A DNA stretch of 64,000 nucleotides from Bradyrhizobium frederickii (GTDB lineage Bacteria > Pseudomonadota > Alphaproteobacteria > Rhizobiales > Xanthobacteraceae). The translations under genes were made by a program, and so were the position numbers. Shown in pieces: positions 8,943-18,811 of this stretch (position 1 is its first letter; each line of letters begins with the position of its first letter). The stretch lies in contig NZ_SPQS01000015.1 of the NCBI RefSeq assembly GCF_004570865.1, positions 1 to 64,000 of the forward strand, written 5' to 3'. The notes beneath the pieces were generated by a model. It saw only the letters and a list, made by a program, of their open reading frames with translations. It made no database searches and had not been told where the DNA came from.

Positions 8943-9728
8943 ATGATCAACCCGGTGCCGTCAGCGCGGCTTCACATGCGGCGATGCATCGCGCTCGGGG
9001 CCGTGCTCGCGCTGCTGCTCGGTGCCGCCGCCGTAGCCAATGCGCAAGGTCTGGTCAAAGGCGTTCAGGACGGCGCGGCCGCCGGCAACAAGGCGGCAGG
9101 TCCGGTCGGTGGCGTGCTCGGCGGCGCAATCGGCGGCGTCGTCGGCGTCTTCACCGGCGTGCTCGGCGTCGGCAACAACAATGGCGGCAATCCGCCGCCG
9201 GCCGCCAAGGAGTCCAGCAAGGACGCCAAGCAGCAGGGCGCGGCCAAGGACAAGGACGCCAAGACTGCCAAAGGGGGCAAGGGCGCCAAGGCGAGCAAGG
9301 AAGCCAAGAACGCTCCGCAGGGCAAGGACAATAAGGACGTCACCGTCCTCACCCAGCCCGGCGCGCCGCAGCAGACCGCCGAGCAGATCGTGGCTAACAG
9401 CGATTCCTATATCGAGCGGATCAAGACCGAGCTGAACCTCACGCCCGAACAGGAGAAGCACTGGTACGGCTTTTCGAGCGCGATGCACTACCTGGGACAT
9501 AATGGTGCAGAGCGGCTCAACTTGCGGGTTGCGCGCGCCAAGCGTGATCCGCCCGACGACATCATCGAGCAGATGCGCAACGAGGCGCAGTTCCTGATCG
9601 ACCGCGCCGCCGACCAGCGCAATGTCGCCGACGCCGCCGAGCCGCTCTATTCGAGCCTCGATGACAAGCAGAAGCAGGTCTTCATCCAGGAGATGGTGCG
9701 CCTGAGCCACGAACGCGGACTGGATTGA
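8943..9728 (+). CDS. Secreted LTXXQ-motif protein with Lys/Ala/Gly-rich linker
   Basis: A 261-residue exported protein. The ATG at 8943 is chosen because GGAG sits 6 bases upstream; an in-frame ATG at 8931 is possible. A signal peptide ends near AAAVANAQG. A glycine-rich hydrophobic stretch follows (GGVLGGAIGGVVGVFTGVLG), then about 45 residues of Lys/Ala/Asp/Gly low complexity. The C-terminal 110 residues are helical and carry LNLTPEQEKHW, the Spy/CpxP-related LTXXQ signature. Such proteins are periplasmic and some act as chaperones or stress sensors. The Gly-rich segment could insert in or associate with membrane. The function here is not established. Confidence 0.75.
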   Translation: MINPVPSARLHMRRCIALGAVLALLLGAAAVANAQGLVKGVQDGAAAGNKAAGPVGGVLGGAIGGVVGVFTGVLGVGNNNGGNPPPAAKESSKDAKQQGAAKDKDAKTAKGGKGAKASKEAKNAPQGKDNKDVTVLTQPGAPQQTAEQIVANSDSYIERIKTELNLTPEQEKHWYGFSSAMHYLGHNGAERLNLRVARAKRDPPDDIIEQMRNEAQFLIDRAADQRNVADAAEPLYSSLDDKQKQVFIQEMVRLSHERGLD

Positions 9729-9744
9729 TCAAGTTGAATCGGAT

Positions 9745-9771
9745 CGGGCGCCTCTGAATTAACGGCGCCCG
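9745..9771 (+). terminator. Hairpin after the LTXXQ gene
   Basis: An 8-bp stem (CGGGCGCC with GGCGCCCG) with a 11-base AT-rich loop begins 17 bases after the stop. No clear U-tract follows, so it is a probable rather than certain intrinsic terminator. Confidence 0.45.
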
Positions 9772-9839
9772 CCACGAATTCGTGTATCCTCTCCGCAATT
9801 GATGTATGGTTAGCTTCGCAAGCTGACTGCGGAGTTGAG

Positions 9840-10217
9840 ATGGCGGACGGACTCTCCGTTTTCCTGGTCGAAGACGAGGCGTTGATCCGGATGATGATCG
9901 CCGAGATGGTGGTGGAACTCGGCCACCACGTCGTCGCGGAAGCGGACAATGTTCGGGACGCGAGCGCGTTTGCCATGACCGCGCAATACGATCTGGCCAT
10001 CCTCGACATCAATCTCATGGGCGTCTACGTCGATCCCGTCGCCGACTTGATCGAACGTCGCGGCAAGCCGTTTCTGTTCGCGACCGGTTACGGGCCAGAA
10101 CTGCTGCCGTCCTTGCTCCGGCGCCGGCCGATCCTGCGCAAGCCGATCGCAATGGATCAGCTCAAGGCGATGATCGATTCGATGTTTCCTGGAGCCTCGG
10201 CCCAGGCGCCTCATTGA
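9840..10217 (+). CDS. Stand-alone response regulator receiver protein
   Basis: A 125-residue single receiver domain with no output domain. The acidic pocket is in FLVEDE (residues 8-13), the phospho-acceptor Asp is in LAILDINL near residue 55, the conserved Thr is in FATGYG, and the Lys is in RKPI near residue 101. GGAG at 9831-9834 supports the ATG at 9840. Receiver-only proteins of this kind act in phosphorelays or as phosphate sinks. No histidine kinase is adjacent, so its partner must be elsewhere. Confidence 0.85.
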   Translation: MADGLSVFLVEDEALIRMMIAEMVVELGHHVVAEADNVRDASAFAMTAQYDLAILDINLMGVYVDPVADLIERRGKPFLFATGYGPELLPSLLRRRPILRKPIAMDQLKAMIDSMFPGASAQAPH

Positions 10218-10272
10218 GCGACGGCGCCGCATTGTTGACGATGAAGACGCCTGACGACAAAGACGCCGCGGC

Positions 10273-10476
10273 TCAGCTGCGGCCGTTCTTCAGCACCCTG
10301 GCAATGGTGTGGGCCGTCATGGCCGCCCGGTCCGAGGCGCGCTGCGCGGCCAGCCGGTCTCGCGCCTTTTCCTCGATCAGGAGGTCGATCAGGGCCAGCC
10401 GCTTGTCCTCGTCGTCCGCCTCGCTCAGCAGGCGGTGATAGCGGTGATAGTCGAAACCCAGATCCTGCTTACGCAT
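10273..10476 (-). CDS. Small hypothetical protein, helical and highly charged
   Basis: A 67-residue protein starting at the ATG at 10476, with a G-rich sequence about 6 bases upstream; a TTG 15 bases earlier is also in frame. The sequence is mostly helix, rich in Arg, Asp, Glu and Ala: RKQDLGFDYHRYHRLLSEAD, then EKARDRLAAQRASDRAA. There is no signal peptide or membrane segment. It converges with the receiver gene. I believe it is a real gene because composition and codon use fit the neighbours, but I cannot name a domain. Confidence 0.5.
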   Translation of the reverse strand: MRKQDLGFDYHRYHRLLSEADDEDKRLALIDLLIEEKARDRLAAQRASDRAAMTAHTIARVLKNGRS

Positions 10477-10617
10477 GTCACGCCCCCGCAACTACGCCAC
10501 ACACGGTCTGATTGTTTCGCATCGGGAACATAGAGGCAAGCACGATCCTGCGTGGAACCGCGCGCTCGCCGCAATCACCTGTGAATATTGGAACGGCGCG
10601 GGGCGAGTTCCCGCAAC

Positions 10618-11604
10618 TCAATCCACATTATGGTCGGCAAACATCTTCAGGCCGACGAAGCTCGCATCGGGCTTGATCACCAGCCTGGTCGGGATGTTGC
10701 GCAAATAGTCCTGGAACCGGCCCTTGGCTTCGAAGCGCGGCCGGAACGCGGAGGCCGTCAGGAACTGGGGAAAGCGCGGCACGATTCCGCCGGCGACATA
10801 GACGCCGCCGCGGGCGCCGAACGTGACCGCGAGATTGCCGGCGACCGAGCCCAGGATGGCGCAAAACATCTCGAGCGTCGCCCGGCTGACGGGACAGCTG
10901 CCCTCCAGGGCCGCCTTGGTGATGCCGGCAGCATCGCGATGCGGCACCTGAGCGCCGTCAACTTCCGCCAAGGCTTCGTAGAGATTTTGCAGCCCGGAAC
11001 CCGAGAGCGCGCCGCGTTCGATGGAGACGTGGCCGAGGCGTCGGCGCAAGCACGCGATCACGCGTTCCTCGCGCTCATTCTCTGCCGGCAGGGTCGCGTG
11101 TCCGGCTTCGGTGACGACGGCGAGGCGAGCGCCATGGCGTTGGACCAGACAGGAGACGCCAAAGCCGGTTCCGGGACCGACCACCAGCAACGGCTCTCCG
11201 GGCAGGCCATCGCCGCCGCCGAGCGGGATCAGATCGGCAGGCTGCAAGGCGGGCAGGGACCAGGCGACCACCTCGAAGTCGTTGAGCACGTGGACGCTGT
11301 CGAAGCCCAGAGCCGGTTGCAGCTCGTTGCCGTCAATGACCCAGGGGCTGTTGGTCATGACGCAGCGGTTGTTGCTGACAGGACCCGCCACGGCCAGCAC
11401 GGCCCTTCGCGGCTGCTCGCCACCGGCCCGGCGCGCCAGGACGTCCGCGATGGCCTCCCGGACCGTCGGGAAGTCGGCGACCTTTACATAATCGATCGGT
11501 CCGGATTGATCGCCTTGGCCCAATTCGCTTCGGCTCAGCGCGAAGCGCGCATTGGTGCCGCCGATATCGGCGAGAAGAATCTGTCCTGTCTTGCCGATAT
11601 TCAT
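10618..11604 (-). CDS. glk: Glucokinase
   Basis: A 328-residue enzyme that phosphorylates glucose with ATP, the entry step to Entner-Doudoroff or pentose-phosphate breakdown. The N-terminal ATP motif is LLADIGGTNARFAL. The sugar-binding region includes LNDFEVVAWSLPAL with the catalytic Asp, and GPGTGFGVS follows. The typical EAGHATLPA (zinc-free glucokinase) and the late GGVYVAGGIVPRF motif are present. Length matches E. coli Glk (about 321). The frame extends 43 codons upstream of the chosen ATG without a convincing ribosome site, so the start is the least certain point. It stands alone on the minus strand, divergent from the nicotinamidase gene. Confidence 0.9.
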   Translation of the reverse strand: MNIGKTGQILLADIGGTNARFALSRSELGQGDQSGPIDYVKVADFPTVREAIADVLARRAGGEQPRRAVLAVAGPVSNNRCVMTNSPWVIDGNELQPALGFDSVHVLNDFEVVAWSLPALQPADLIPLGGGDGLPGEPLLVVGPGTGFGVSCLVQRHGARLAVVTEAGHATLPAENEREERVIACLRRRLGHVSIERGALSGSGLQNLYEALAEVDGAQVPHRDAAGITKAALEGSCPVSRATLEMFCAILGSVAGNLAVTFGARGGVYVAGGIVPRFPQFLTASAFRPRFEAKGRFQDYLRNIPTRLVIKPDASFVGLKMFADHNVD

Positions 11605-11862
11605 GATCTCGTGGCCGCCGCCGCCTTCCGGCCTCGGCAACCCTGTCCTCCGCGCCTTCGACCCCATCCACCCGTCACGAACAGTTTCGAGAATCCGCCC
11701 TCGGGTGCGCCTAGTCAACACGGACGAGGCCAAACCGTTGCATCCTGGCGCCCGTAGTGACCAATTCGCGCAGGCTCCGCAAGGTGGCGGCGGTTGCGAA
11801 GCTGGGCGGGAAGACCGACACTAAGGGCTCCTGTCCGGCGGCCGGCGCGCCGGGCACATGGA

Positions 11863-12501
11863 ATGAGACTGGCGATGAAGATTTCCGACCACGACGTGCT
11901 GCTGGCGATCGACGTGCAGAACGACTTCTGCACCGGCGGAGCGCTCGCCGTTCCCGGCGGTGAGAAGGTCGTCCCCGCGATCAACCGAATCGCCCAAAAA
12001 TTCGCCAATGTGGTGCTGACCCAGGACTGGCATCCGCGCGACCACGTTTCATTCGCGACGAACCATGCGGGCAAGCAGCCGTTCCAGACCATCGAACTCG
12101 ACTATGGCACCCAGGTGCTCTGGCCGGCGCATTGCGTGCAGGGCACCTCGGGCGCCGAATTCCATCGCGATCTCGACGTCGTCAGGGCGAGCTTGGTGGT
12201 GCGCAAGGGGTTTCGCCGCGGCGTCGATTCCTATTCGGCATTGTTCGAGAACGACCACAAGACGGCGACGGGCCTGCTCGGCTATTTGCGCGAACGTGAG
12301 CTGAAGACTGTCTTTGTCGCCGGTCTCGCGCTGGACTTCTGCGTCCGCTTCTCGGCGGAGGATGCGCGCAAGGCGGGGTTGGAGGTGGCCGTGATCGAGG
12401 ACGCCTGCCGCGGCATCGATCTCGACGGCTCGGTGGCCGCGGCCCATCGGAGCTTTCGCGAGCTCGGCGTCTCCGTCGTCAGCCTCGAGGCGTTTTTATA
12501 A
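11863..12501 (+). CDS. pncA: Nicotinamidase (nicotinamide deamidase)
   Basis: A 212-residue cysteine hydrolase converting nicotinamide to nicotinate for NAD salvage. The catalytic Asp is in LLAIDVQNDF (residue 17), metal ligands are in the DWHPRDHVSF stretch, and the nucleophile Cys160 is in LALDFCV. The neighbouring WPAHCVQGT is also typical of PncA. Start options are the ATG at 11863 or 11875; neither has a strong ribosome site and both give family-like lengths. Its stop overlaps the ribosome site of the next gene, so the two are probably co-transcribed. NAD synthetase, the last step of the same salvage route, lies two genes downstream. Confidence 0.88.
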   Translation: MRLAMKISDHDVLLAIDVQNDFCTGGALAVPGGEKVVPAINRIAQKFANVVLTQDWHPRDHVSFATNHAGKQPFQTIELDYGTQVLWPAHCVQGTSGAEFHRDLDVVRASLVVRKGFRRGVDSYSALFENDHKTATGLLGYLRERELKTVFVAGLALDFCVRFSAEDARKAGLEVAVIEDACRGIDLDGSVAAAHRSFRELGVSVVSLEAFL

Positions 12502-12511
12502 GGACCTCGTC

Positions 12512-13627
12512 ATGGTGGACAAGATCGGCAAACAGCCAGGCGGACCGGATCATGCTCCCGACGAGCCGCTGCTATGGCCGTTCACGGCAGCCCGGCTGGC
12601 CATGGACGCTTGCTTCTGGTGGGTCGAGCGCGGCCGGGCAGAGCAGAACGAGAGCAACCTGGCGTGGACGACGCCCAACCGCGTTGCGCTCGAGCTTGCG
12701 ACGATGCGCCTGCGCGATTGCTCGCAGCGCCGGTCAGGTCAGCCCGTGCTGGTCTGCGCGCCCTATGCGCTGCATCGGGCTTTGATCGCCGATTTCGCGC
12801 CCGGCCACAGTGTGGTGGGGTCCCTGCAAGACGGCGGCATCGATCGGATCTATCTCACCGATTGGCGCTCAGCCACCCCCAGCATGCGCTATCTCTCGAT
12901 CGACAGCTATCTCGGCGATCTCAATGTCGCCATCGACGAGATCGGCGCGCCGGTCGATCTGGTCGGCCTGTGCCAGGGCGGTTGGCTGTCGCTGCTCTAT
13001 GCGGCGCGCTTTCCCGCCAAGGTGCGGCGGCTGGTGCTGGTCGGCACCCCCGTCGACCTCTCGATCGATTCGCCGTTGTGCCGGCTCACCCGCAACGCGC
13101 CCGAGATGGTGTACGACCAGCTCGTCGCACGCGGTGGCGGCAATGTCAGCGGCGGGGAGATGCTCCGCTTGTGGTCCAAGGCGCCAAACCGCGATGATAT
13201 CGTGGCGGCGTTGCAGAGGGACCTGTCGGACGAGGAAGGCGCGGCGCTGCTCGCGCGCTTCGACCACTGGAACGCGGAGACGCTCGATCTGCCGGGTGCG
13301 TATTATCTGGAGGTCGTCAACCGGATCTTCCGGGAGAACCAGATCGCCGGCGGCAGCTTCAAAGCGCTTGGCCGCACGGTCGATCCGAAGGACGTCAAGG
13401 CGCCGGTTTTCCTGCTCGCCGGGCTCGACGACGACGTCGTGCCGGCTGCGCAGGCGCTCGCCACAGCTGGTCTCCTCGGCACGCCGCCGGCCTTCATTGC
13501 TGCGGCTTCCGAGCCGAGCAACCACCTTGGCCTGTTCATGGGGGCGCGCACCCACGCGCATGCCTGGCCGCGGATCGCAGAATGGCTGCGCGACGACCTG
13601 TCGGGCGTGCTGGCCCGCAGCGCATGA
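12512..13627 (+). CDS. PHA-synthase-like alpha/beta hydrolase (Cys nucleophile)
   Basis: A 371-residue alpha/beta-hydrolase-fold protein with the poly(3-hydroxyalkanoate) synthase box GLCQGGW at 152-158. The nucleophile is therefore Cys154, not Ser. An Asp in AGLDDDVVP (306-308) and His338 in SNHLG complete a Cys-Asp-His triad. The spacing is close to that of class III PhaC enzymes, as is the length (about 355). YLTDWRSATP upstream matches the PhaC YxxxWR region. It begins 10 bases after pncA and shares its message. Class III synthases need a PhaE partner, which is absent here. A different acyl-transfer or hydrolase role is possible. AAGGA precedes the ATG. Confidence 0.75.
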   Translation: MVDKIGKQPGGPDHAPDEPLLWPFTAARLAMDACFWWVERGRAEQNESNLAWTTPNRVALELATMRLRDCSQRRSGQPVLVCAPYALHRALIADFAPGHSVVGSLQDGGIDRIYLTDWRSATPSMRYLSIDSYLGDLNVAIDEIGAPVDLVGLCQGGWLSLLYAARFPAKVRRLVLVGTPVDLSIDSPLCRLTRNAPEMVYDQLVARGGGNVSGGEMLRLWSKAPNRDDIVAALQRDLSDEEGAALLARFDHWNAETLDLPGAYYLEVVNRIFRENQIAGGSFKALGRTVDPKDVKAPVFLLAGLDDDVVPAAQALATAGLLGTPPAFIAAASEPSNHLGLFMGARTHAHAWPRIAEWLRDDLSGVLARSA

Positions 13628-13766
13628 GCTCGTCGGGCGCGAACCGGCGGCCCTGCAAATCCGTTATGCATGACGGCGGATGGCCTGCACGCGCCCCGGC
13701 CGATGGGCTACATATGATCCGGAGCTGACGGCTTCGGCAGCGAAGAGACCAAGGGTACTGCGCTCG

Positions 13767-15800
13767 ATGACTTTCCACTCGATCTACGCCCACGGATTTG
13801 CGCGCGTGGCGGCCTGTGTCACCACGTCCCATGTCGCCGATCCCTCGGCCAACGCAAAGGCGGTGCTGGCGGCAGCCAACGCCTGCCACGAGCAGTCGGT
13901 GGCGGTCGCCGTGTTTCCCGAGCTGTGCCTGTCCGGTTACGCCATCGAGGATCTGGTCAAGCAGGACCCGCTGCTCGATGCGGTCGAGCGCGGCCTCGCC
14001 GGCCTGGTCGAGGCCTCCGCGGCACTGATGCCGGTCCTGATCGTCGGCGCGCCGCTGCGCTTTGGCCATCGCATCTACAATTGCGCCGTCGTCATACATC
14101 GCGGCAACGTTCTCGGCGTGGTGCCGAAGACCTATTTGCCGACCTACCGCGAATTCTACGAGGGCCGGCATTTCGCCTCCGGCGCCGGCATGGTCGGGGA
14201 AACGATCGCGTTCGGCGGGCTGCATGCGCCGTTCGGCGTCGACCTGCTGTTCTCGGCCGAGGACGTTCCGGGCCTCACCATCGGCGTCGAGATCTGCGAG
14301 GACATGTGGATCCCGGTAACGCCGGCCTCTGAGCTGGCGCTCGCCGGCGCGAGCGTGCTGATCAATCTCTCGGGCAGCCCGATCACGATCGGCCGGGCGC
14401 GCTCGCGCGCGCTGCTGTGCCAGTCGACATCGGCGCGCTGTCTCGCGGCTTATGTCTACTCCGCCGCCGGGGCGGGGGAATCGACCACCGATCTGTCCTG
14501 GGACGGCCAGACCTCGATCTACGAGAACGGCGTGCTGCTGGCCGAGGGCGAGCGCTTCCGGCAGAGCGGCCAGATCACCACTGCCGACATCGATCTCGAC
14601 CTGCTGAGGCAGGAGCGTGCGCTGATGGGCACGTTCGACGACAACCGCAGGCAGCGCGAGGCGTTTTTCCGCAAGGTGACATTCGCGTTGAAGCCACCGG
14701 CATCCGACATCGGCTTCCTGCGCAAGGTCGAGCGCTTCCCGTTCGTACCGAGCGACGAAAGCCTGCTCGAGCAGGATTGCTACGAGGCCTACAACATCCA
14801 GGTTGCCGGCCTCGTGCAGCGCATGCGCGCCACCGGCACCAAGCGGGTCGTGATCGGCGTCTCGGGCGGGCTCGATTCCACCCACGCTCTGATCGTGGCC
14901 GCCAAGGCGGTCGATCTGCTCGGCCTGCCGCGCGAGAACATCCTGGCCTACACCATGCCGGGCTTTGCCACCGGCAGTGAGAGCAAGACCCATGCGCTGG
15001 CGCTCATGCGGGCGCTGCACACGAGCTGGCAGGAACTCGACATCCGCACCACGGCGACGCAGATGCTGAAGGACATCGGCCATCCCTTCGGCCGGGGCGA
15101 GAAGGTCTACGACGTCACCTTCGAGAACGTTCAGGCCGGCCTGCGCACGGATTATCTGTTCCGGCTCGCCAACCATCACGGCGGCATCGTGATCGGTACC
15201 GGCGATCTCTCCGAGCTCGCGCTCGGCTGGTGCACCTATGGCGTCGGCGACCAGATGGCGCATTACAACGTCAATGCCGGCGTGCCGAAGACGCTGATTC
15301 AGCACCTGATCCGCTGGGTGATCTCGTCCAAGCAGTTCAGCGCCGACGTCAACCGCACGCTCGGCGCGATCCTGGCGGCCGAAATCTCGCCCGAGCTGGT
15401 GCCGGTGGAGGCCGGCCAGAAGCCGCAGAGCACGGAAGCGTCGGTCGGACCGTACGAGCTGCAGGACTTCAACCTGTTCTACACGCTGCGCTTCGGCATG
15501 CGGCCGTCGAAGATCGCCTTCATGGCGCAGCACGCCTGGAAGGACGTGGCCAAGGGCGACTGGCCGCCGGCCTTCCCGAGCGACCGGCGCAGGGCGTATG
15601 ATCTGCCGGAGATCCGCCGCTGGCTCGAAGTGTTCCTGCGCCGCTTCTTCGCCTTCAGCCAGTTCAAGCGCTCGGCGATGCCGAACGGCCCGAAGGTCTC
15701 GGCGGGCGGCTCGTTGTCGCCCCGCGGCGACTGGCGCGCGCCGTCGGATTCGAGCGCGGCGGCCTGGCTCGAGGATCTCGAGCGGAACGTGCCGAACTGA
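13767..15800 (+). CDS. nadE: Glutamine-dependent NAD+ synthetase
   Basis: A 677-residue two-domain enzyme that amidates deamido-NAD to NAD using ammonia from glutamine. The N-terminal nitrilase-like glutaminase domain has the triad Glu52 (FPELCLSG), Lys121 (PKTYLP) and Cys177 (GVEICEDMW). The C-terminal PP-loop ATPase domain has VIGVSGGLDSTHALIV near residue 375 and GTGDLSELALGWCTYG. Length and triad spacing fit the mycobacterial type (about 679 residues). The upstream in-frame start at 13680 adds 29 unlikely residues. With pncA two genes upstream it covers the first and last steps of nicotinamide salvage. Confidence 0.95.
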   Translation: MTFHSIYAHGFARVAACVTTSHVADPSANAKAVLAAANACHEQSVAVAVFPELCLSGYAIEDLVKQDPLLDAVERGLAGLVEASAALMPVLIVGAPLRFGHRIYNCAVVIHRGNVLGVVPKTYLPTYREFYEGRHFASGAGMVGETIAFGGLHAPFGVDLLFSAEDVPGLTIGVEICEDMWIPVTPASELALAGASVLINLSGSPITIGRARSRALLCQSTSARCLAAYVYSAAGAGESTTDLSWDGQTSIYENGVLLAEGERFRQSGQITTADIDLDLLRQERALMGTFDDNRRQREAFFRKVTFALKPPASDIGFLRKVERFPFVPSDESLLEQDCYEAYNIQVAGLVQRMRATGTKRVVIGVSGGLDSTHALIVAAKAVDLLGLPRENILAYTMPGFATGSESKTHALALMRALHTSWQELDIRTTATQMLKDIGHPFGRGEKVYDVTFENVQAGLRTDYLFRLANHHGGIVIGTGDLSELALGWCTYGVGDQMAHYNVNAGVPKTLIQHLIRWVISSKQFSADVNRTLGAILAAEISPELVPVEAGQKPQSTEASVGPYELQDFNLFYTLRFGMRPSKIAFMAQHAWKDVAKGDWPPAFPSDRRRAYDLPEIRRWLEVFLRRFFAFSQFKRSAMPNGPKVSAGGSLSPRGDWRAPSDSSAAAWLEDLERNVPN

Positions 15801-15830
15801 TCGGACGGCGGATCGGTGGGGGATGATCGG

Positions 15831-16208
15831 ATGTCGACGGTGGATGGAGCACAGGAGGAGGCCAGGGTCGTCAACGGCCTCTACATCTTCGACATCGAGA
15901 TGCGCGACGGCAAGCGCGGCCAGGCGAGGGGCGTCGTGGTGCTCTGCGACGGCCGCATCATGGGCGGCGACAGCTATTTCTATTACACCGGCAGCTACAC
16001 CTTCCGGAACGGCAAGTGGCGCGGCGACATGATCGTCAACCAGCACACCGAAGCCGTCGGCAGGACGCTCGCCTTCGGCGGCAGGGAGGTCACCTGCGGA
16101 TTCTCGGGCGACTATTCCGCCGGCGGCGCCGAGGTCGAAGGCATGGCGCTGGTCGGCAAGACCAGTGTGACATTCACAGCCCGCCTCACGCTCAAGGACG
16201 CGATGTAA
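15831..16208 (+). CDS. GrlR-like regulatory domain protein
   Basis: A 125-residue protein, all-beta in outline. The sequence VNGLYIFDIEMRDGKRGQA, then VVLCDGRIMGGDSYFYYTGSY and KWRGDMIVNQHTEA, is the pattern found in GrlR-family proteins. These are small beta-barrels named after a negative regulator of type III secretion in enteric pathogens; rhizobial copies are common and not tied to such systems. A GGGGG stretch 10-14 bases upstream supports ATG 15831. It follows nadE by 30 bases. There is no type III secretion gene in the window, so the regulatory label is by family only. Confidence 0.7.
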   Translation: MSTVDGAQEEARVVNGLYIFDIEMRDGKRGQARGVVVLCDGRIMGGDSYFYYTGSYTFRNGKWRGDMIVNQHTEAVGRTLAFGGREVTCGFSGDYSAGGAEVEGMALVGKTSVTFTARLTLKDAM

Positions 16209-16299
16209 GCCCGGTTTGATCGCCCTCGTTCCTCCTCAGGAACCTTCGCACCCACAGTACGTTTGCCTGTGTTGTTGCGAATTTTCGAGGAGAGGGACT

Positions 16300-17547
16300 A
16301 TGCGCAGGCACTTGATGCTATCGACTGCGGCTATCGGATTGATGCTTGCTTCCGGCGTCGCCTACGCCCAGGCGCCCGGTGAGCGCAGAGAGGAGCCGAA
16401 ACGGACCGAGGAGCCGGCGAAAGGCGCCGCGCCGCAGCGCGGCGGCGCCCAGGAACGTGTTCAAGAGCGCGCACAGGGCGCCCAGGAGCGACTGCAGGGC
16501 GCGGGCCGCGAGGAGAAGGGCGGCGCTGCCAAGCACGAGGCCAACGACGACAAGCGCCAGCCGGCCAATTCTGCCGAGCGTAACCAGCCGAAGGCCAGCG
16601 ATCAGGCACAAGAATCCCGCGAGCCTGCGCGTAATCGCAACCGTGAAGCCGAGAGCGCGAAACCGGGACGGGACGGCAAGAGCAGCGCTGAGACGAAGCA
16701 GGACAAGTCTGCGCCGCAGAAATCAACGGCCGAGACCGAGAAATCCAAGACCGGTCCCGCCGGCCAGCAGAACGAGCGGACTGGGGCTGCGACCAACCAG
16801 AAAGAGCAGAACCAGGCCCAGCCGCCGCGCAATGCTGCCGATCAGCAGCAGCCGGCGCAGCAGATCAACCGGCCAGCCACCGCGACGGACACGAGCCGGA
16901 CGGCTCCGACCAACAATGCGCAGACTGCGCCTTCTGGTACGCAAACCAATCAAGCCAACCAGACCACCCAGACCAATACGCAGGTCAATCAGCAGGCCCA
17001 GGTGACGTCCGAGAAGCAGGTGCGGATCTCCGAAACGGTGAGCAGGGCGCGCCTGGCCCAGCCGGAGCGCAATCTGAACATCTCGATCCGGGTCGGCGAG
17101 ACGATTCCGCCGCGCGTGCGTCTCCACCGGCTTCCGCCCGAGATCGTGTCGATCGAGCCGGCATATCGCGACTACGAATATTTCGCCACGGATGACGATG
17201 TCGTCATCGTGGAGCCGCGCACGCACCGCATCGTCAGCCAGGTGCCGCGCGATCCGTCGCGAGCCCGCGCGCAAATGGGCGGCGCCGCCTCATCGAGCAT
17301 GGCGGCGGCCGGCGCAAGTAACGTGAACTGCCAGATCATGCGGCGTGACGCGTCGGGCAATGTCGCCCAGGCAGAACCCTCAACCGTGGGATCGACCGCG
17401 CGCGGGGATTCCATGAGCGTGATTGTGCAGATGCAAGGCGGCGGCTCGTCCGCGCCGATCGCCCTCGGCGCTGCCGCGGGCAATATCCTGGTCGCAACAC
17501 AGGGGCAGGGCGACTGCACGGTGACGATCGAACCGCTGACGCGCTGA
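16300..17547 (+). CDS. Secreted DUF1236 protein with long Gln/Ala/Thr-rich region
   Basis: A 415-residue exported protein: AGAGGG ribosome site, signal peptide ending near SGVAYAQAP, then about 220 residues of low-complexity, strongly hydrophilic sequence rich in Gln, Ala, Lys, Glu and Asn. The DUF1236 domain follows near 265-330 (IRVGETIPPRVRLHRLPPE, then YRDYEYFATDDDVVIVEP). About 75 further residues include a Cys pair and a Ser/Gly/Ala-rich stretch. DUF1236 proteins are periplasmic and very common in Bradyrhizobium, with no known activity. The disordered region may let the domain span the periplasm. Confidence 0.8.
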   Translation: MRRHLMLSTAAIGLMLASGVAYAQAPGERREEPKRTEEPAKGAAPQRGGAQERVQERAQGAQERLQGAGREEKGGAAKHEANDDKRQPANSAERNQPKASDQAQESREPARNRNREAESAKPGRDGKSSAETKQDKSAPQKSTAETEKSKTGPAGQQNERTGAATNQKEQNQAQPPRNAADQQQPAQQINRPATATDTSRTAPTNNAQTAPSGTQTNQANQTTQTNTQVNQQAQVTSEKQVRISETVSRARLAQPERNLNISIRVGETIPPRVRLHRLPPEIVSIEPAYRDYEYFATDDDVVIVEPRTHRIVSQVPRDPSRARAQMGGAASSSMAAAGASNVNCQIMRRDASGNVAQAEPSTVGSTARGDSMSVIVQMQGGGSSAPIALGAAAGNILVATQGQGDCTVTIEPLTR

Positions 17548-17570
17548 GCGAAACACGACGCTGAAACGAC

Positions 17571-17612
17571 AACGCGCCGCCCGGATGCCCCAACCGGACG
17601 GCGCGTTCTTGC
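17571..17612 (+). terminator. Probable intrinsic terminator after the DUF1236 gene
   Basis: A 9-bp GC-rich stem (AACGCGCCG with CGGCGCGTT) encloses a smaller CCGG/CCGG pair and is followed by CTTGCGTT. It starts 23 bases after the stop codon. The U-tract is weak. Confidence 0.55.
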
Positions 17613-17995
17613 GTTCAATCTCAGAAAGTGTCGAGGTCCGGAGTGCCTAGGAGTCCGGACCGCGTCACCTTGCCCCAGCCTTCAATCCCCCGCCCCATGT
17701 GGTCCCCCAACCCCGTGGCGCGCGATCAGAGGGTGATGCCCGTGGTAGTGGCCGCCGATCGATGTCCCGCGATGTACGCGAAGCTTGGTTAGGATTCCAT
17801 TCCGGATCACTACGGACACGATAACGGTTGCGGTGTGTTCGTTCGGCATCGGCGCCGCGATCGCTGTCGTCTGAATCCGGAGCGCGCGGTCAGGATGTCC
17901 ACATCTCCCGGCGCTGCGAAACCTGCATTTCACCGGCCTGTCATCGAACTGGTCTAGCGCTGCTCCCGTCATCGCTGAAGGTCAAGGAGCAAGCC
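17613..17995. other. Non-coding stretch before the isomerase operon
   Basis: About 380 bases with no convincing gene. A minus-strand open frame (17682-17972) crosses it but has no ribosome site or recognisable domain. It probably carries the promoter of the operon that starts at 17996. Confidence 0.45.
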
Positions 17996-18811
17996 ATGTC
18001 GAAGCCGGTGCTGGGCGCCGCATTGTCCATCAAGTCGATACCCGCGCATCGCGACTGGCTTCTGGAGCGGCAGCGCGATCTCGAAATCCAGGATTTCTTC
18101 CGCGCCGATCTTCTCGACAGCGATTGGCGCAGCACCGCCGGCGAGATCAAGCAGATGCTGTCGGGCCATACCGGCCGGCTCGGCATCCACGGTCCGTTCT
18201 GGGGCTTCAAGATCGACAGCCACGATCCCATGATCCGTCAGGCGGTGACCAAGCGCCTGCTTCAGGGGCTGGATGCCGCCGAGTTCCTCGGCGCGACGCA
18301 GATGGTGATCCATTCGCCGTTCACGACCTGGGATCACAACAATCTCGATCTCTATCCGGACAATCGCAACAATCTCGTCGAGCGCGTCAAGGCGACGCTC
18401 GCCGAGGTCATCGCGCGCGCGGAAACCGTCGGCTGCGAGATCGTCATCGAGAACATCGAGGACAAGGATCCGCGCGACCGCGTTCGTCTCGCCAAGGCAC
18501 TCGAAAGCGCCAAGGTTCGCGTCTCGCTCGATACCGGTCACGCCAACTACGCCCACATCTCCACCGGCGCGCCGCCGGTCGACTACTACGTCGAGACCGC
18601 CGGCGACATGCTGACGCATGTGCATCTGCAGGACACCGACGGCTTTGCCGACCGGCACTGGGCCCCGGGCGAGGGCAACATCCCCTGGGTCGCCGTGTTC
18701 CGTGCGCTGGGACGGCTGACGTCCAACCCGCGCCTGATCCTCGAACTTCGTAATCACGACGACGTCCGCGCCGGCGCAGCCCATCTCGCCGCGCTCGGAC
18801 TCGCCGAATAG
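17996..18811 (+). CDS. Sugar phosphate isomerase/epimerase family TIM-barrel protein
   Basis: A 271-residue protein of the xylose-isomerase-like TIM-barrel (AP endonuclease 2) family. Visible landmarks are IHGPFWGFKI, MVIHSPFTTWD, EIVIENIED (metal Glu), VSLDTGHANYA (Asp and His) and a C-terminal LILELRNHDD. These provide the Glu/Asp/His metal site of the fold. AAGGAGC precedes the ATG by about 6 bases. It is the first gene of an operon with a peptide-type ABC importer, so it probably acts on the imported compound or its product. The exact substrate is not readable. Confidence 0.82.
   Translation: MSKPVLGAALSIKSIPAHRDWLLERQRDLEIQDFFRADLLDSDWRSTAGEIKQMLSGHTGRLGIHGPFWGFKIDSHDPMIRQAVTKRLLQGLDAAEFLGATQMVIHSPFTTWDHNNLDLYPDNRNNLVERVKATLAEVIARAETVGCEIVIENIEDKDPRDRVRLAKALESAKVRVSLDTGHANYAHISTGAPPVDYYVETAGDMLTHVHLQDTDGFADRHWAPGEGNIPWVAVFRALGRLTSNPRLILELRNHDDVRAGAAHLAALGLAE

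Follow-up and report, generated by a model that had tools for sequence, protein, structure and literature searches.

The gene at positions 12,512–13,627 (+ strand) of the window, the 64,000-nt stretch of Bradyrhizobium frederickii DNA analysed here, encodes a Cys-Asp-His alpha/beta hydrolase of the PhaC/PhaZ superfamily (hereafter X), which falls into a separate, unnamed clade. Judged from sequence comparison, X is most likely an intracellular (R)-hydroxyacyl ester or thioester hydrolase/thiolase and not a class III PHA synthase, a reading to which we assign a probability of roughly 0.45. This reading is the simplest, because the protein is a Cys hydrolase outside the synthase clade, occurs beside PhaC, phasin or Pta-AckA genes in several lineages, and has a likely ortholog that is dispensable for PHB synthesis and, like phaZ1, under PhaR repression in microoxia. 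Genes of this kind, catalogued as spare PHB synthase genes, are probably better read as encoding polyester breakdown or transfer enzymes.

X encodes a conserved Cys-Asp-His hydrolase

X has an ATG start and encodes 371 aa with a GLCQGGW box, in agreement with an earlier reading of the window made from the sequence alone (the sequence-only reading). The presumed nucleophile C154 in the GLCQGG elbow (codon at 12,971–12,973, + strand), the presumed triad acid D307 (13,430–13,432, +) and the presumed triad base H338 (13,523–13,525, +) are invariant in 15 orthologs, and every PhaC, PhaZ and DUF3141 row has its Cys at the position of C154. The acid had earlier been placed at D306-308; among these three residues D307 alone is invariant, and D306 and D308 vary among the 15 orthologs. 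A further His, H88 (codon at 12,773–12,775, +), lies in an APYxxH motif.

The gene is under purifying selection, with a median dN/dS of 0.185 against the window copy (80 loci); the corresponding medians of its neighbors are 0.118 for pncA and 0.083 for nadE. The glk values (stops in 49 of 80) were set aside because the frame used may take in sequence upstream of the true start. By the median of X, a decaying pseudogene is ruled out for the Bradyrhizobium group. Exceptions among the 80 loci are L105, where the contig stops within X, and L109, where its length is not a multiple of three and a frameshift is likely.

X differs from class III synthases in profile scores and residue spacing

The likeness of X to PHA enzymes exceeds chance, as seen in its matches to Pfam PHB_depo_C (5e-11, 42.9 bits, above the cut-off of 27, profile positions 82–200 of 203) and to TIGR01836, the class III PhaC family (3e-30, 105.4 bits, under the cut-off of 365.3), and in the purifying selection. 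Pfam Abhydrolase_1 also matches. The score against TIGR01849 (PhaZ) is 55.3 bits, under the cut-off of 300.75, and that against PF11339 (DUF3141) is 29.5, just below the cut-off of 29.7, which three X orthologs tested exceed (L174, 69.1; L234, 67.4; L166, 39.0). Membership of the PhaC/PhaZ superfamily with Cys triad residues, as first proposed, is thereby upheld.

The nucleophile elbow (GxCxGG) reads GLCQGG in 23 of 25 aligned X rows and GICQGG in the other two. The sequence-only reading had described the triad spacing as that of class III PhaC. For the Cys-to-Asp distance this holds (153 in X, 153–164 in class III, 172–177 in PhaZ, 160 in DUF3141), but the Asp-to-His distance is 31 in all 25 X rows versus 29 in all ten class III rows, 28–29 across PhaC, 33 in PhaZ and 39 in DUF3141. 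A His directly follows the triad Asp in 20 of 22 PhaC rows (8 class I, 10 class III, 3 class III-like and 1 class IV), a criterion drawn from these very rows, and in none of the 25 X rows, nor in PhaZ or DUF3141. Conversely, the H88 position is His in 24/25 X, 10/10 PhaZ and 3/3 DUF3141 rows and in 0/22 PhaC rows, the surrounding motif being APYxxH in X, APMSGH in PhaZ and DPRAGH in DUF3141.

X thus shares with class III PhaC the alpha/beta hydrolase type, the GxCxGG box, a Cys-to-Asp distance near 153 and a length of about 355–370 aa, but differs in lacking the Asp-His pair, in having an Asp-to-His distance of 31 instead of 29, in lying outside the PhaC clade and far below the TIGR01836 cut-off, and in that no PhaE was found: neither PhaE nor phasin was detected among 11 ORFs (X, pncA, nadE and eight neighbors) in a Pfam scan of 7.1–20.5 kb, which bears out the earlier remark that no phaE is nearby. 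With PhaZ (TIGR01849) it has in common the Cys triad, CQ at the nucleophile, APxxxH, an Asp-Asp at the acid and a PHB_depo_C match above cut-off; it is nevertheless shorter, lacks the CQP elbow, scores below the TIGR01849 cut-off, has a Cys-to-Asp distance of 153 instead of 172–177 and forms its own clade. The GLCQGG of X is nearer to the class III GICQGG than to the PhaZ CQP, a point against reading X as a hydrolase or thiolase. DUF3141 proteins (PF11339) share the Cys triad with CQ, an xPxAGH motif and a location beside pta-ackA(-fabI), but are about twice as long, have distances of 160 and 39, and form a clade of their own. In excerpts of the literature, one DUF3141 protein is given as a PHB depolymerase (PMC8050969), and DUF3141 proteins are placed with PHB polymerases (PMC11878206).

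X forms a clade outside the PhaC clade and is modeled with an alpha/beta hydrolase fold

Tree 1 was built from 62 rows and 350 columns, comprising 25 X rows hand-picked from a larger set, 10 PhaZ, 3 DUF3141, 22 PhaC and Ser-type rows; among the PhaC rows class II is absent and class IV is one long-branched row. The X rows form a single clade (support 97/94), PhaZ and DUF3141 form clades at 100/100 each, and the class I, III, IV and class III-like rows together with two Ser-type rows form one clade (100/99) that leaves X outside. Grouping X with class III is rejected in the AU test (p = 0.0037; with the class III core, p = 0.0006). The test does not reject a union of X with PhaZ (p = 0.47), whose clade leaves X outside, or with all PhaC (p = 0.35), and the best tree pairs X with DUF3141 on a branch of 70/30. 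In these alignments X is a separate clade whose sister could be PhaZ, DUF3141 or all PhaC.

Class III membership, suggested by the earlier comparison of spacing, was not sustained. A class III PhaC working without PhaE is ruled out by the profile score (105.4 bits against 365.3), the tree, the AU test (p = 0.0037), the missing Asp-His pair and the Asp-to-His spacing of 31.

A first AlphaFold2 model, from 29 close rows (28 of the 80 Bradyrhizobium loci and the window), reached a pLDDT of 36.7 and was dropped. The second, from 17 rows that include 11 of the 80 Bradyrhizobium loci and five viral-contig sequences, reached a pLDDT of 81.4 and a pTM of 0.82 and, in line with homology, gives X an alpha/beta hydrolase fold. 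Among solved structures, PHA synthases come closest to the model (Z 33.9, 2.8 Å over 306 residues, 22% identity), which speaks against X as a hydrolase or thiolase; gastric and lysosomal lipases are the next family (Z 25.9), and Foldseek likewise places PhaC structures nearest. The sole PhaZ by title among the best 50 structure matches is that of B. thuringiensis (Z 21.8), which is Ser-type, since its S102A mutant is also among the matches. Because no Cys-type PhaZ or DUF3141 chain was recognized among the matches listed, this ranking cannot weigh PhaC against either of them.

The likely Bradyrhizobium diazoefficiens ortholog is classed as a PHB synthase paralog

Excerpts of published work describe five phaC paralogs in B. 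diazoefficiens USDA110, among them phaC5, also called phbC4 or bll4548 (PMC10888616, PMC4029623, PMC6201568), and identify bll4547 as nadE (PMC5996035). As its locus tag adjoins that of nadE, bll4548 is very probably the ortholog of X, an assignment drawn from locus tags and not from the sequence of that strain; the two tags carry the same strand letter, and the product is short, PhaC-like and weakly similar to PhaZ, as X is. In those excerpts bll4548 is classed as a PHB synthase paralog, unlike our reading of X. According to the part of PMC10888616 consulted, PHB polymerization requires PhaC1 only, and PhaR represses phaC5 in microoxia, as it does phaZ1, with phaC5 showing the lowest expression among the PhaR-regulated genes; a portion of PMC6201568 reports low phbC4 expression in TY medium both with and without PhaR. 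Very low expression of bll4548, which stays low on PhaR loss in TY in these excerpts, counts against X as a hydrolase or thiolase. If that reading is true, a soybean-symbiont gene counted as a PHB synthase paralog is none, which fits the PhaC1-only report.

The name PhaC5/PhbC4 implies that X is a genuine PHA synthase, which would then belong to a new class independent of PhaE. We regard this as improbable. The TIGR01836 match (3e-30), the GxCxGG box, the solved PhaC structures as nearest folds and the failure of the tree test to reject X as sister to all PhaC (p = 0.35) are in its favor. It conflicts, however, with the 105 bits against a TIGR01836 cut-off of 365, with the position of X outside the PhaC clade (100/99) and the rejected class III grouping, with the Asp-His pair (0/25 X rows versus 20/22 PhaC rows), with the lack of PhaE among the scanned ORFs, and with the two class I-type PhaCs that the genome already encodes, of which one exceeds the class I cut-off and the other does not; the available text of PMC10888616, where B. 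diazoefficiens PHB needs PhaC1 alone, also disagrees with it.

NAD genes surround X in one Bradyrhizobium group

X lies between pncA, encoding a nicotinamidase (11,875–12,501, + strand; NF008623, 203.8 bits, cut-off 174), which ends 10 nt upstream, and nadE, encoding a long-type glutamine-dependent NAD+ synthase (13,770–15,800, +; NF002730, 1,088.6 bits, cut-off 473), which begins 142 nt downstream. The run of pncA, X and nadE on one strand noted at first is confirmed, and glk lies upstream of it in the opposite orientation. The genome, 8.29 Mb in size, carries a second pncA (G000:C36:34105-34710, also above the NF008623 cut-off) and a shorter second nadE of 585 aa (G000:C91, 356–357 kb, above the NF010588 cut-off).

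This arrangement is kept in many relatives, as a co-occurrence check proposed earlier now reveals. glk, pncA and nadE surround X at 77 of the 80 named loci; a single one of the 80 has a title that names neither Bradyrhizobium nor Bradyrhizobiaceae. Among 117 genomes of the genus, 66 have a long nadE above cut-off, 116 have pncA and 107 have X (E up to 1e-60). The long nadE is present in all 60 genomes whose X is at least 75% identical, versus 6 of the other 57. X and nadE lie within 300 nt on the same strand in 55 of these 60 genomes (55/117 of the genus); in the remaining five the gap is 869–1,824 nt (four genomes) or the genes are split over contigs (one). Of the six other long-nadE genomes, two lack X at the threshold and four have X at 59–61% identity on another contig. 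Chance adjacency of X and nadE is ruled out inside the Bradyrhizobium group by the 55/60 count.

A record titled Frankia sp. RB7 (L084) has the Bradyrhizobium arrangement at 80% identity and is perhaps mislabeled or a mixed assembly. In another genus of the same family (L028/L126, genome G077), a Ser-type PhaC-like gene that is not an X ortholog lies near a long nadE on the opposite strand.

The spacer between X and nadE contains a strongly conserved block around ATGCAT (13,652–13,691, + strand; alignment of 76 spacers, the window included), a possible nadE regulatory site, suggesting that nadE may have its own control. Neither a sigma-70-type promoter match in 11,400–16,300 nor an Rfam match in 9,500–18,000 was found, and two terminator-like sites lie inside X and nadE, with 2.3 expected by chance. 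The pattern TGC-N2-6-GCA, which we take to be a loose form of the PhaR site, is present in the glk-pncA interval of 34 of 79 sequences, the window not among them.

The sequence-only reading had seen in this context a hint of a link between acyl-CoA or polymer metabolism and NAD supply. An acyl-CoA or polymer role fits the contexts described below. The NAD link, drawn from synteny, is weak, because it appears in one Bradyrhizobium group only, the genome has a second pncA and nadE, and neither gene was found near X at 30 other loci. It is very improbable that X is itself an NAD-supply enzyme, for example one that hydrolyzes a nicotinate ester or conjugate to feed PncA and NadE. The conserved glk, pncA and nadE (77/80 loci) and the long nadE in 60/60 genomes with an X of at least 75% identity versus 6/57 others would suit such an enzyme, but pncA or nadE was found near X at 0/30 other loci, the spacer before nadE carries a separate conserved block, and the sequence family points to acyl esters.

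X is patchily distributed and lies beside acyl-CoA or PHA genes at some loci

The distribution of X is patchy. Within the order, 16 of 199 genomes have matches of at least 40% identity; there are matches to the X model (A1) of at least 385 bits in 10/385 genomes of the class and 18/398 of the phylum. Further A1 matches listed, one in the class and five in the phylum, score 140–151 bits, and two of those checked are class III PhaC, by TIGR01836 or by a PhaE-like neighbor seen by eye.

At 30 other loci, all outside the Bradyrhizobium arrangement and searched by tblastn in stretches of at most 19 kb, neither pncA nor nadE was found near X (at L127, where the contig ends within X, one side was seen). 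Within 5 kb of X, pta and ackA are present at 6/30 loci, a class I-type PhaC at 4/30 and a phasin at 1/30, together 9/30; the PhaC directly adjoins X at three loci, and PhaC and phasin lie near it at a fourth. These nine loci make an acyl-CoA or polymer role fitting, and are compatible with the early suggestion of a different reaction on the same scaffold. Because some loci share one genus, these counts are not independent; they also stand without matched control loci and ignore PhaC matches below 35% identity and P-type ATPase or CoA-transferase matches below 30%. Scores of the neighbors exceed the family cut-off for pta, ackA, phasin, citryl-CoA lyase and fabI and fall below it for CoA-transferase and hydratase; two neighboring PhaCs that were scanned match class I best, with 520 and 523 bits against a cut-off of 623.

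The other 21 loci comprise two with an enoyl-CoA hydratase-like gene, three (one genus) with a CoA-transferase and a citryl-CoA lyase, one with a CoA-transferase alone, one with a P-type ATPase and 14 with no sought gene within 5 kb. Both the 21/30 loci without pta, ackA, PhaC or phasin and the 14/30 without any sought gene are points against X as a hydrolase or thiolase of hydroxyacyl compounds.

The main rival to that reading is an acyl-CoA thioesterase or acyltransferase acting on a non-PHA acyl group (a citrate-, mesaconate- or branched-type acyl-CoA, or lipid), with only the scaffold in common. We consider it unlikely, since class I-type PhaC adjoins X at three loci, with PhaC and phasin near a fourth, and the families nearest to X in sequence are PHA enzymes and DUF3141. 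Several contexts would nonetheless suit it: X follows the CoA-transferase and the citryl-CoA lyase (over cut-off) at L119–L121, all of one genus, where a tricarboxylate transporter look-alike was also seen by eye, with no family match; the enoyl-CoA hydratase-like gene (below cut-offs) adjoins X at L173 and L175; fabI lies beside X at L233; and at the 21/30 loci no pta, ackA, class I-type PhaC or phasin gene lies closer than 5 kb to X.

DUF3141 genes occur in similar surroundings. The DUF3141 paralog in this genome (L179, G000:C3) is followed by pta, ackA and fabI. These three genes lie beside DUF3141 at three of four loci, with none of them at the fourth, and L264 and L265 have an operon-like DUF3141-pta-ackA-fabI series, in which fabI precedes ackA at L264. 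At one Burkholderia locus the order is pta-ackA-X-fabI. With pta-ackA(-fabI) beside both, X and DUF3141 occur in the same kind of operon. Among the literature titles and abstract openings searched, none was found to treat the pncA-X-nadE order or a link of X or DUF3141 to pta-ackA, and the portions of the B. cenocepacia low-oxygen literature consulted yielded nothing on X.

X also occurs on large plasmids of Burkholderia vietnamiensis (pBVIE02, L234) and Paraburkholderia (pBN2, L235), one of them typed conjugative, near MFS, ftsH, UbiB-like and P-type ATPase genes, a setting that we presume to resemble a stress-tolerance island. On a Microvirga terrae plasmid (L236:6917-7882), the X copy is shortened, without the region that would contain D307 and H338, and has pta and ackA at a distance of 3–4 kb.

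X may release acyl groups from stored polyesters

The substrate, the reaction direction and every regulatory link of X are predictions. If X is a hydroxyacyl ester or thioester hydrolase/thiolase, candidate substrates would be PHA, PHA oligomers and hydroxyacyl thioesters. H338, oriented by D307, would deprotonate C154, to which the acyl group would move, and release would be by water or CoA. In other species, in some of which X lies near PhaC and once near phasin, the product could feed Pta-AckA, with acyl-CoA converted through acyl phosphate to acid and ATP. In one Bradyrhizobium group X has ended up in the pncA-X-nadE cluster, and a possible NAD+ demand during PHA mobilization would make sense of that cluster.

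Relatives of X are present on viral contigs

Relatives of X were found on six IMG/VR viral contigs of 6.9–101 kb (L252–L256 and L262), the same protein being on two. They are about 300–336 aa long, are 29–31% identical to X and have the triad residues and H88. In a PHROG scan, six neighbors on two of these contigs are SSB, helicases, exonuclease, RNA ligase and homing endonuclease. In tree 2, to which five viral rows were added and from which two Ser-type and seven other rows of tree 1 were omitted, the five viral relatives form a clade (99/99) beside X, and the joint clade with X has support of 75/13. Queries for PhaZ and class III, with two short patterns each, found no viral contig, which is no proof of absence given so few patterns. 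Both phaC and ackA are reported as phage auxiliary genes in an excerpt of PMC12013262.

A broader and rather speculative possibility is that X and DUF3141 share one unrecognized step, the release of acyl groups from stored polyester, probably onto CoA, for passage to Pta-AckA, which would yield ATP from PHA without respiration; phages would carry the gene to drain the store in infection, and one Bradyrhizobium group would have tied the gene to a spare NAD-making pair. If this is true, PHA stores may feed substrate-level ATP formation, and, as members of the clade turn up in pta-ackA operons as well as on plasmids and viral contigs, the function of X would extend to many genomes.

A phbC gene is also given in two records named Acinetobacter phage MD-2021a (H101 and H102), whose lengths of 232 and 306 kb suggest a possible bacterial origin.
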